Below are positions 24,097 through 32,908 of a stretch of 32,908 nt of DNA, in pieces. The notes beneath the pieces are model-generated. The model was given only the letters and a program-made list of their open reading frames with translations. It was not told the origin of the DNA and ran no database searches. Each line of letters begins with the position of its first letter. The first letter of the stretch is position 1. Source of the DNA: Thermoproteota archaeon (lineage in GTDB: Archaea; Korarchaeota; Korarchaeia; Korarchaeales; Korarchaeaceae); NCBI GenBank assembly GCA_027491415.1, contig JAOZFH010000014.1, forward strand, positions 1 through 32,908, read 5' to 3'. The position numbers and the translations under genes are program-made.

Positions 24097-25128
24097 ATGA
24101 CGCTCAGCCCGCCTCCGAGCACCTCCGGCGTCCCCAGCGAGCCTGAGCCCAGGCTGGGCGAGTGGCGAGAGATTGACCTAGACTACGAATCCCTGTACGC
24201 CAGGGCCGCCTCGGCGGCGTCGTCGGGCTCTCTGGGTGAGCTCATCTCTCTGGCAGCCCTGAGCAGCGTGGCCGTTGCTAGGGCGATCTCGGAGGGTGGG
24301 CTGGAGGGAACCTTTCTCAGGTCCTTGGAGAGAAACCCGGCGGCCGGCATGAGGCTTTACCGACAGATAAGGTGGCACCTCAACCCCGAGCTCAGGAGGA
24401 GGTTCAGGTCCCTCCTCAGCAAGGTCGCGCTGAGGAGTGGGGTGAGGATCGCCTCGCTTGCGTCCGGCAGGTCAATGCGCGTTCTAACGAGGTACGAGCC
24501 GGGCATGGACTTCGACGCCGAGGAGACCATACAGAGGCTGATCTCCAGCGGAAAGAGTCTGAAGGAACTCACCTACGAGGATGTCGTCGGGGTTAGGAGG
24601 GTGGAGCGGAGCCGCGGGGCTGTCATAATATTGGACGCAAGCGGCTCGATGACGGGGGGCAAGATCGCGGCCGCGGCGCTCTCCGCGGCCGTCGCAGCTC
24701 ACCTCATGAGGGCGGACGAGTACGCGATCGTCGCGTTCAACACGGAGCCCTTCGTCTTAAAGGGGGTGAGGGACAAGACCCCCATTGAGAGGGTGATCGA
24801 GGAGATAATGGACTTGGCCCCGCTTGGCTACACCAACATGAGGGGGGCCTTAGAGGTGGCCCTGAAGCAGGGCGCCCTTATCAAGAGGCCAGACAAGAGG
24901 TACGTCCTGATCACCGACGGGCTCTACAACGTTGGAGGAGATCCCCGGTCGGTGGCCAGGCGCCTCAGCGGGCTCAACGTGATAGGGGTGAGGGGATGGG
25001 GCGGGAGAAGGACCGCCGCCGGCATGCGGCTCTGCGCCGAGCTGGCGAAGATGGGAGGCGGGAGGTTCATAGAGCTGAGAAGCCCCCAGGGAGTCCCGAC
25101 GGCCGTGGCCAGGATTCTGGAGTCCTGA
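24097..25128 (+). CDS. VWA-domain protein (MoxR partner)
   Basis: The 343-residue protein has a helical N-terminal half of unknown fold and a von Willebrand A domain from about residue 173. The domain carries a complete MIDAS: ILDASGSM (DxSxS from D180), a Thr in GYTNMRGAL and Asp in VLITDGLYN. It should bind a divalent metal and a protein ligand in the cytosol. There is no signal peptide or membrane segment. It is 20 nt after moxR, and such pairs work together on a client complex. The next gene downstream is tRNA-Leu and then a secreted M1 peptidase. Whether these are functionally linked is unknown. Confidence 0.92.
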   Translation: MTLSPPPSTSGVPSEPEPRLGEWREIDLDYESLYARAASAASSGSLGELISLAALSSVAVARAISEGGLEGTFLRSLERNPAAGMRLYRQIRWHLNPELRRRFRSLLSKVALRSGVRIASLASGRSMRVLTRYEPGMDFDAEETIQRLISSGKSLKELTYEDVVGVRRVERSRGAVIILDASGSMTGGKIAAAALSAAVAAHLMRADEYAIVAFNTEPFVLKGVRDKTPIERVIEEIMDLAPLGYTNMRGALEVALKQGALIKRPDKRYVLITDGLYNVGGDPRSVARRLSGLNVIGVRGWGGRRTAAGMRLCAELAKMGGGRFIELRSPQGVPTAVARILES

Positions 25129-25135
25129 CGCGCAC

Positions 25136-25142
25136 TTTATAT
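25136..25142 (+). promoter_or_regulatory. TATA element for tRNA-Leu
   Basis: tttatat starts 8 nt after the VWA stop and is centred about 29 nt upstream of the tRNA 5' end. It predicts a transcript start at about 25165, at or just before the tRNA. Confidence 0.65.
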
Positions 25143-25163
25143 CCCGGGTGGAAGGTGCGGTCA

Positions 25164-27128
25164 TTGAGCGGGGGTGGCCGAGCCAGGTCAAAGGCGCGGG
25201 GTTTAGGACCCCGTCCCTCAGGGGTTCGTGGGTTCGAATCCCACCCCCCGCACCACCTGATCGCGATCTCTCTCCTGATTCTGATCGCCCCCTCCCTCTC
25301 CCCCGCGGGAGCGCCAGGGTTCCCCCAGGCCGGTGGGTGCCTCCGCCCGAGCTACAGGATGAGGGTGGAGATCTCCCCATCCCTCGACGCCGTGTCCGGC
25401 TGGGAGCAGGTCACGTGGCAGAACTGCGAAGGGGAGGCCGTGAGCGAGGTACACCTGAGGCTGTATCCCAACGCCTTCTCGTCGAGCGGCGGACAGATTG
25501 AGGTGCTGTCGGTGTCCTCACCGGGAAGGAACTCGACCTCTGGCGTCGGGGGGCCCGATGACACTGTCCTAGAGGTCTCCCTTGACCCCCCCGTGGCACA
25601 TGGGGAGAGGGTGACCATCGAGATCGAGTTCACGGTCCACGTCCCGGAGGTGGACGACAGGTTCGGCCGCAGCGAGGGGGTGCTCGCCCTGGGAAACTGG
25701 TTTCCGATACTCTCCGTGCTGAGGAACGGGTCTTGGGTGGATCACCCTTACTTCCACGACGGGGAGTGCTTTTTCAGCAAGTCGTCCGACTTTCTCGTTG
25801 AGCTCGTGGTTCCAGGTGACCTAGTGGTTGCGGCCACGGGTGAGCTGACCTCGGAGAGCCGGCTGGGAGATGGAAGGGTCGTTCAGATGTGGGTGGCCCA
25901 CGGGGTGAGGGACTTCGCGCTGGTCGCGAGTCCCCGCTTCGAGGTCTCGCGGGAGAGGGTAGGAGGGGTGACCGTATACTCCTACTACCTGCCCGAGCAC
26001 GCCGAGGGAGGGAAGAGAGTCCTAGAGTACGCCGTCAACGCGATACGCGTCTTCAGTGAGCACTTCACGCCCTACCCCTTCTCCGCCTTCCGGGTGGCGG
26101 AGGTGCACGGCTGGTTCGGCGGGATGGAGTACCCCCAGCTCATCATGGTGTCCAGCTCGTTCTACGAGGGCGACGAGCGGACGCTCGAGATGATCGTAGC
26201 GCATGAGACGGCGCATCAGTGGTGGTACTCCCTCGTGGGCAACGATCAGTGGGAGGAGCCGTGGCTCGACGAGTCACTGGCGGAGTATTCACAGATCCTC
26301 TACTTTGAGTGGGTCTACGGTCCGGAAAATGCAGAGATGGCATTCTGGGACTTCGTGGGGAACCCCTACAGGTTCTACATCGACTCGGGAGAGCCGGCCC
26401 TGCCTGTCGCGGTCAGCGTCGGCGAGGTCTCCGACGCCCCCGGGCGGTACAGGGCGGCGGTGTACCTGAGGGGCGCCTGGGCCCTGAGGATGCTGCGCGG
26501 GATCCTGGGGGACGAGTCCTTCTTCCGTGCGCTGAGGGTGTACGCGGAGGAGAACGCCTTCGGCGTGGCCACCGGCGAAGACCTCGTATCGGCGTTCGAG
26601 GAGTCATGGGGCGGGGATCTCGACTGGTTCTTCGAGGAGTGGGTGTACTGGGGGTGCGTCCCGTCCTATCGGGTGGCCAGGGTCGGGAGGGTAGCCGAGA
26701 GGTCTTGGATGGAGGTGTACCAGTCCCTCGAGGGCTGTGACGGCGGCGCCCCGAAGTCAATGCCAGTCGAGTTCGAGGTGGACCCCTGCGGACGGGTAGA
26801 GTCCTGGATCAACTCCACCTGGGCGAACGTGAGCCTCCCGGAGGGCTGCGAGCCCGAGGTCGTGTTGCCTGACCCAGACGACGAAATCCCTGGGGCAGAC
26901 TTCGGGTGGTCGGCTCGGAGCGACGGCGTCCCTGCGACGCCGGGAGGTTGTTCGCCCGGCGGGAGCTCATCTAGGGAGTGGACATCGCCGGTCTCTATGG
27001 TCCTGATCCTCTCGGGGACGGCGCTGACCCTGGCCTTCGCGATCTGGCTGGGCAGGACCAGGTCGAGGGCCTCGTCGGAGTCGTGGCCGAGTCAGGAGGA
27101 GGTGGATGGTGCGGCCGCCGGGATTTGA
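25164..27128 (+). CDS. Secreted, membrane-anchored M1-family aminopeptidase
   Basis: Zinc aminopeptidase of the gluzincin M1 family. Numbered from the TTG at 25164 (654 residues), it has the exopeptidase motif GGMEYPQ, the zinc site HETAH (347-351) and E370 18 residues later. The hydrophobic segment LIAISLLILIAPSLSPAGA is a probable signal peptide. VSMVLILSGTALTLAFAIWL near the C-terminus is a probable anchor, so the enzyme faces outward. Eight cysteines in between could form disulfides. No ATG, GTG or TTG lies in frame between the tRNA-Leu 3' end and the ATG at 25359, so the signal peptide is only reached from the TTG at 25164 (AAGGTG 6 nt upstream), which reads through the tRNA. The last codons overlap tRNA-Gly. 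The start is uncertain. Confidence 0.8.
   Translation: MSGGGRARSKARGLGPRPSGVRGFESHPPHHLIAISLLILIAPSLSPAGAPGFPQAGGCLRPSYRMRVEISPSLDAVSGWEQVTWQNCEGEAVSEVHLRLYPNAFSSSGGQIEVLSVSSPGRNSTSGVGGPDDTVLEVSLDPPVAHGERVTIEIEFTVHVPEVDDRFGRSEGVLALGNWFPILSVLRNGSWVDHPYFHDGECFFSKSSDFLVELVVPGDLVVAATGELTSESRLGDGRVVQMWVAHGVRDFALVASPRFEVSRERVGGVTVYSYYLPEHAEGGKRVLEYAVNAIRVFSEHFTPYPFSAFRVAEVHGWFGGMEYPQLIMVSSSFYEGDERTLEMIVAHETAHQWWYSLVGNDQWEEPWLDESLAEYSQILYFEWVYGPENAEMAFWDFVGNPYRFYIDSGEPALPVAVSVGEVSDAPGRYRAAVYLRGAWALRMLRGILGDESFFRALRVYAEENAFGVATGEDLVSAFEESWGGDLDWFFEEWVYWGCVPSYRVARVGRVAERSWMEVYQSLEGCDGGAPKSMPVEFEVDPCGRVESWINSTWANVSLPEGCEPEVVLPDPDDEIPGADFGWSARSDGVPATPGGCSPGGSSSREWTSPVSMVLILSGTALTLAFAIWLGRTRSRASSESWPSQEEVDGAAAGI
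25168..25255 (+). tRNA. tRNA-Leu(UAG), encoded CCA, no intron
   Basis: Class II cloverleaf. Acceptor GCGGGGG pairs with CCCCCGC, discriminator A, encoded CCA. The anticodon stem CGGGG/CCCCG holds TTTAGGA, giving anticodon TAG (leucine). A long variable arm precedes the T arm GTGGG-TTCGAAT-CCCAC. The gene lies inside the 5' end of the M1 peptidase frame on the same strand. Confidence 0.95.
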
Positions 27129-27203
27129 ACCCGGGTCTGGAGCGCTCCGCGCCTCGAGAGGCTTGGCAGGCTCCCATCCTAGACCAGGCTAGACTACGGC
27201 CGC
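27107..27203 (-). tRNA. tRNA-Gly(GCC) with a 19-nt intron, encoded CCA
   Basis: Reading leftward, acceptor GCGGCCG pairs with CGGCCGC, discriminator A, encoded CCA. The D stem GTCT pairs with GGAT, and the T arm is CCGGG-TTCAAAT-CCCGG. The anticodon stem GGAGC/GCTCC encloses 26 nt, 19 more than a normal loop. Removing the intron after position 37 gives the loop CTGCCAC with anticodon GCC. The 3' 22 nt overlap, antisense, the end of the M1 peptidase frame, whose stop codon lies in the T-loop sequence. Confidence 0.94.
27145..27163 (-). other. tRNA-Gly intron with canonical bulge-helix-bulge
   Basis: In RNA sense, CUGC (anticodon loop) pairs with GCGG (intron 3' part) as the 4-bp central helix. 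It is flanked by 3-nt bulges CA|A and AG|C, with an inner GCCU-CUCG-AGGC hairpin inside the intron. Cleavage two nucleotides into each bulge removes exactly 19 nt at the standard 37/38 position. This is a textbook substrate for the endonuclease encoded at 17.7 kb. Confidence 0.9.
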
Positions 27204-32088: not shown

Positions 32089-32908
32089 AGACCGGTTGAT
32101 CCTGCCGGAGGGGACCCCTAGCGGGCTCGCACTAAGCCATGCAAGTCGGCTGGGGGCCATTCCGCCCCTGGCGGCGCACGGCTCAGTAATACACGGTCAA
32201 CCTACCCTGGGGACCGGGATAACCTCGGGAAACTGAGGCTAATCCCGGATAGGGGCCGGGTACTGGAATGTCCCGGCCCCGAAAGTAGGCGGGGGGAGCC
32301 CCGCTGAGGCCCCAGGATGGGACCGTGGCCTATCAGGTAGTAGGTGGGGTAACGGCCCACCTAGCCTGAGACGGGTGCGGGCGGTGGGAGCCGGAGCCCG
32401 GAGATGGGCACTGAGACAAGGGCCCAGGCCCTAAGGGGCGCAGCAGGCGGGAAACTTCCGCAATGCGCGAAAGCGTGACGGAGTGAGCCCGCGTGCCGCC
32501 CGCTGAGGGCGGCTGTCCCCGGGTGTAAACAGCCCGGGACAGGAAGGGGAGGGCAAGGCTGGTGCCAGCCGCCGCGGTAAAACCAGCTCCTCGAGGGGTC
32601 CCCACGCATACTGGGCCTAAAGCGTCCGTAGCCGGCCCCGCAAGTCCTCGGTTAAATCCACCGGAAGACCGGTGGGCTGCCGGGGATACTGCGGGGCTAG
32701 GGAGCTGGAGGGGCCGGGGGTATTCCGGGGGGAGCGGTAAAATGCGTAGATCCCCGGAGGACCACCGGTGGCGAAGGCGCCCGGCTGGAACGCGTCCGAC
32801 GGTGAGGGACGAAAGCTGGGGGAGCAAACCGGATTAGATACCCGGGTAGTCCCAGCCGTAAACGATGCCGGCTAGGTGCCGGCCGAGGTTTCGGCCTCGG
32901 CCGGTGTC
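32089..32908 (+). rRNA. rrs: 16S ribosomal RNA, 5' portion (runs off the right edge)
   Basis: The small-subunit rRNA begins near 32089 with ccggttgatcctgccgg and continues through landmarks in the right order: ctaagccatgcaagtc, gggaaacttccgcaatg, gtgccagccgccgcggtaa (the 530 loop), ggattagatacccgggtag and gtaaacgatg. About 820 nt are present with no intron in that part. The sequence is archaeal (ccgcggtaaaaccagct; ctgggcctaaagcg) and very GC-rich, consistent with high growth temperature. The exact mature 5' end is inferred by analogy. Confidence 0.97.

Follow-up and report, generated by a model that had tools for sequence, protein, structure and literature searches.

Where does translation of the peptidase gene behind tRNA-Leu(UAG) begin? 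In the window, the whole 32,908-nucleotide stretch of DNA that was analysed, the reading frame of an M1-family metallopeptidase (Peptidase_M1) is free of stops from 24996 to 27128 and crosses the entire tRNA-Leu gene. An earlier note on this DNA had described this arrangement, and our reading of the frame bears out its anatomy: the signal peptide lies directly behind the tRNA and starts with CTG 25257, a single base beyond the CCA; no ATG, GTG or TTG occurs in frame from the tRNA to ATG 25359; and TTG 25164, 4 nt before the tRNA, is present with AGGTG 6 nt upstream. The features are collected in Table 1. The sequence compared comprised about 400 kb of this genome (G000), 570 kb of G001, which is the only same-genus genome, and 812 kb of G004, which belongs to the same family.

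Table 1. Features at the tRNA-Leu–peptidase locus and CTG starts in conserved genes of the lineage
Feature	Position	Strand	Basis or remark
TATA box TTTATAT, tRNA-Leu promoter	25136..25142	+	Position -32 relative to the 5' end of the tRNA, counted from the first T
SD-like AGGTG (25153-25157) and TTG 25164, start proposed in the earlier note	25153..25166	+	Probably unused
tRNA-Leu(UAG), CCA encoded	25168..25255	+	ARAGORN and Rfam concur
RNase Z cleavage zone (predicted): cut behind 25255, where the CCA ends, or behind 25256	25255..25257	+	Analogy with RNase Z of Methanolobus psychrophilus and Methanococcus maripaludis
CTG, putative start codon of the peptidase (favoured)	25257..25259	+	First NTG behind the tRNA; CTG in Gar1 and eS8 of the lineage
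Signal peptide LIAISLLILIAPSLSPAGAP	25257..25316	+	Hydrophobicity against shuffles; hydrophobic N-termini in family relatives
M1-family metallopeptidase, C-terminal transmembrane segment	25257..27128	+	PF01433; last 22 nt antisense to tRNA-Gly
tRNA-Gly(GCC), antisense overlap with the peptidase gene 3' end	27107..27203	-	ARAGORN and Rfam
Gar1 CTG, this genome	G000 C36 near 121914-121917	-
Gar1 CTG, same-genus genome	G001 C16:36556
eS8 CTG	G004 C1 near 37724-37726		GGGTGA just upstream

The peptidase gene and its signal peptide

The peptidase translation matched the Peptidase_M1 profile PF01433 with 100.2 bits against a curated cut-off of 27.7 (E = 1.7e-28). It shares with M1-family aminopeptidases the zinc-binding HExxH...E motif, in the HExxH-18-E spacing (HETAHQWW...DESLAEY), matches solved M1 aminopeptidases in the PDB by sequence, and carries a hydrophobic segment at its C-terminus. 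Exported forms are known among M1-family aminopeptidases. The enzyme of the window is itself typical of the family and is distinguished by a signal peptide together with a C-terminal transmembrane anchor. Comparison with G001 over 25413-27128 revealed 16 synonymous and 14 non-synonymous changes and a dN/dS of 0.27, indicating that the peptidase is under purifying selection.

CTG 25257 is the first NTG codon behind the tRNA and the point where the signal peptide begins. The frame from this codon reads LIAISLLILIAPSLSPAGAPG, with LIAISLLILIAPS following the CTG. The best 12-residue window of this N-terminus had a mean hydropathy of 2.87; when 25257-25358 was put through 20,000 dinucleotide shuffles, not one was as hydrophobic. 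A comparable hydrophobic N-terminus was present in just 9 of the 413 called genes, and the other two forward frames over 25257-25358 were hydrophilic, one of them containing stops. The hydrophobic segment behind CTG 25257 is a genuine, frame-specific coding signal. Taken together with purifying selection on the gene, this frame-specific signal peptide places the beginning of the coding region at or before about 25257. Read from CTG 25257, the signal peptide has no positively charged n-region, and neither does the ATG-started one of G004.

CUG as a start codon in the lineage

Reviews give AUG, GUG and UUG as the start codons of archaea (PMC7531240), and switches to CUG are very rare among prokaryotes (PMC5622118). 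A genome-wide search through SD and TATA signals found no enrichment of CTG as an SD-led or leaderless start, and CTG, lacking an excess of either signal, is therefore rare as a start here. TTG is strongly used: a 5-mer SD lay upstream of 32.5% of TTG, against a background of about 14% for arbitrary codons (about 42% for a 4-mer).

Conserved genes were then scanned by homology. A first scan for genes lacking any start was noisy because alignments extend into upstream frames, and a strict version was used instead; among 267, 386 and 414 evaluated genes per genome, it left Gar1 and ribosomal protein eS8 as clean cases, in which CTG occupies the conserved start position. In Gar1, CTG stands in G000 and G001 where G004 has TTG and G003 and G007 have GTG; the alignment is ungapped, conserved residues follow directly, and in both CTG-bearing genomes the interval from the upstream stop to the conserved block is free of ATG, GTG and TTG. 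The family call for Gar1 rests on NCBIfam and Pfam matches below their cut-offs. In eS8, CTG in G004 corresponds to GTG in G000, and the 120 codons upstream hold no ATG, GTG or TTG. A clear CTG start was found in only one conserved gene of this genome out of 267, which speaks against common use of the codon. A third candidate, at c4:270560 of G004, was dropped, as an ATG comes after the CTG.

Judged by sequence comparison, CUG initiation thus appears to have precedents in the lineage and to be otherwise nearly absent here. Gar1 and eS8 resemble the rare CUG starts of other prokaryotes in that CUG replaces UUG or GUG at a conserved start, whereas for the peptidase no ancestral start codon is preserved in the alignment. 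Because Gar1 and eS8 are conserved genes, they allow a direct test of CUG initiation.

A possible tRNA-peptidase co-transcript

The tRNA-Leu TATA box lies at -32, the modal TATA position among tRNAs of this genome. With CTG one base after the CCA, the peptidase gene would start as near to a tRNA 3' end as expected under tRNA punctuation; this leaves no space for a separate promoter, and a promoter TATA box is present only upstream of the tRNA. From this anatomy we infer, with roughly even chances of being right, that tRNA-Leu and the peptidase form a co-transcript, that an RNase Z cut at the CCA frees an mRNA beginning with (C)CUG, and that translation starts at CUG 25257. The M1 peptidase, exported and anchored in the membrane, would then be encoded by an independent gene that adjoins tRNA-Leu with almost no spacer, and the two would share one transcript from the tRNA promoter, read-through from the upstream AAA and VWA genes perhaps providing a second source. 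RNase P and then RNase Z would excise the tRNA from the precursor; a 3' cut at the CCA or one base behind it would leave an mRNA starting 5'-CCUGAUCGCG or 5'-CUGAUCGCG, leaderless or with a one-base leader, and translation from CUG 25257 would begin straight away with the signal peptide. On this reading, the open frame across the tRNA would be an untranslated by-product of tRNA sequence in a GC-rich genome.

The predicted cleavage zone follows the RNase Z enzymes of Methanolobus psychrophilus and Methanococcus maripaludis, which cut just after an encoded CCA in 90% and 70% of cases and one base later in 10% and 30%, respectively (PMC7479834). The further proposition, that cleavage at the CCA makes a leaderless CUG 5' end and that tRNA maturation is the obligatory first step in expression of the secreted peptidase, is more tentative, and we regard it as possible rather than probable. 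One of two alternatives in the earlier note had translation start at CTG 25257, on an RNA set free when the tRNA 3' end is processed; the RNase Z analogy and the CTG starts in relatives make it the better supported of the two, with a sequence error or a recently lost start remaining as its rivals.

At least three further tRNA genes of this genome have an open frame running into the gene behind them: tRNA-Leu(UAA) into a CYTH gene with a TTG start 40 nt behind the tRNA, tRNA-Ser(GGA) into a DUF354 gene (TTG, +24 nt), and an intron-bearing tRNA-Leu(UAA) into a PIN-like gene (TTG, +21 nt). The CYTH, DUF354 and PIN starts are too near the tRNA for a separate promoter outside it, and the sequences suggest that co-transcription of a tRNA with an mRNA recurs in this genome. 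The three tRNAs are located at G000 C51:24585-24691, C51:2948-3042 and C30:120455-120542 (minus), with same-strand starts 21-40 nt behind the tRNA and SD-like sequence.

In animal mitochondria, tRNA excision by RNase P and RNase Z defines mRNA ends, and non-AUG starts occur. The proposed co-transcript shares with this tRNA punctuation an mRNA 5' end that is produced by tRNA excision and has almost no leader; it differs in lying on an archaeal chromosome, in comprising one tRNA and one gene with a CUG start, and in being a prediction from sequence. Leaderless mRNAs, with the start codon at or a few bases from the RNA 5' end, are common in archaea (PMC7531240), and the peptidase mRNA would likewise have its start codon at or near the 5' end. 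Known archaeal examples carry a 5' triphosphate at the transcription start and begin with AUG, GUG or UUG, whereas the peptidase mRNA would have an end made by processing and begin with CUG. Direct precedents for archaeal tRNA-mRNA precursors were not found in the open-access literature searched. If the co-transcript reading is true, the locus is an archaeal chromosomal case of tRNA excision defining an mRNA start, comparable to tRNA punctuation in mitochondria; it is evidence that this lineage can use CUG to start translation; and gene finders that assume ATG, GTG or TTG would miscall the peptidase, either placing its start before the tRNA or losing the signal peptide.

The locus in relatives and the missing start

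Comparison of the locus in related genomes, which the earlier note had proposed, gave ordinary starts in several relatives and a gap in the closest one. In G004 (L004), the order VWA, tRNA-Leu(UAG), M1 peptidase and tRNA-Gly is the same as in the window. The frame is open across the tRNA there too, but it is closed two codons ahead of the tRNA by an in-frame TAG, and the peptidase starts at an SD-led ATG that lies 31 nt behind the tRNA and follows GAGGGTGA. In G002 and G006 the peptidase starts at TTG, 76 nt and 90 nt behind the tRNA, respectively, and both genes have a TATA-like box of their own; those of G024 and G025 are ATG-started, with no tRNA adjacent. As read from these genomes, relatives start the peptidase downstream of the tRNA rather than ahead of it. 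On the minus strand of L056 (G028), at about 1386, an M1 homolog has no ATG, GTG or TTG before its hydrophobic N-terminus; a CTG stands right after a stop codon, with GGTGGGG upstream, and this homolog may start at that CTG.

In G001, 341 N cover the interval that corresponds to window 25057-25412, and three other N runs of 105-293 occur in its 570 kb; the 341-N run may be a scaffold gap. Because the only close relative has a gap at the locus, a consensus error near 25257 and a recent loss of the start were kept as rivals.

A local consensus error or strain variant as the source of the missing start, the true sequence having an ordinary start near 25257, we consider unlikely, although a single base change would be enough and the gap in G001, falling exactly over this interval, hints at a locus that may be hard to assemble. 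The tRNA and the gene order are nevertheless intact and syntenic, and the Gar1 CTG occurs in two independent assemblies, which shows that CTG at a start is not necessarily an error. Exact repeats elsewhere in the sequence examined reached 29 nt for the region and no more than 22 nt for the 3' end of the tRNA; an assembly chimera joined at repeated tRNA sequence is therefore also unlikely.

A recent loss of the start by deletion or mutation, leaving a decaying gene or only a cytosolic form made from ATG 25359, is improbable. Between the CCA and the hydrophobic stretch, the window lacks the SD, the ATG and two codons that G004 has, and a protein begun at 25359 would still contain the complete mature domain. 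However, the frame and catalytic motif are intact, selection on the gene (dN/dS 0.27) speaks against decay, the signal peptide is undecayed, and neither an SD sequence nor a TATA box was found at ATG 25359.

Proposed translation through the tRNA

Frames free of stops were counted in about 400 kb of this genome and amounted to 55 of 114 tRNA frames; the openness of the tRNA-Leu frame is not beyond chance. The tRNA-Leu in front of the CYTH gene is open in the same frame as that of the window and reads GGGRARSKAADLRSAPSGVRGFKSHPPH, a nearly identical peptide. A dual role as tRNA and coding sequence gains no support from this frame, which is open at chance frequency, lacks conservation, and is preceded by a stop in G004.

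The shortest well-populated distance from TATA box to ATG among protein genes here is 28 nt, with few boxes closer. Because TATA boxes of protein genes sit down to 28 nt from the ATG, the transcript from the tRNA-Leu promoter is predicted to start at about 25164-25166, and the SD sequence at 25153-25157 would therefore fall outside it. TTG 25164 would at best be at the very first base of this transcript and may be cut off, so that SD and TTG would together be carried solely by read-through RNA from upstream genes.

The other alternative of the earlier note, that translation starts at TTG 25164, the tRNA encoding an Arg-rich n-region and the precursor serving uncut as mRNA and cut as tRNA with competing products, draws on the strong use of TTG here, on AGGTG 6 nt upstream, on a 28-nt distance from the TATA box that is populated among ATG genes, and on the basic n-region that it would supply to the signal peptide, but is the least probable of the readings, since it is impossible in G004, which starts after the tRNA, would have its SD outside the RNA and its TTG perhaps cut if transcription begins at 25164-25166, relies on an openness that is ordinary among tRNA frames of this genome, and places the start on RNA that RNase P and RNase Z would remove.

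Two minor observations concern the flanks of the gene. At 27107-27128, the 3' end of the peptidase gene overlaps tRNA-Gly(GCC) in antisense over 22 nt, and in G004 (L004 7886-7971) the open frame crosses the whole tRNA-Gly in antisense. A partial archaeal SSU rRNA gene occupies 32089-32908 of the window, where it is ended by the contig edge.
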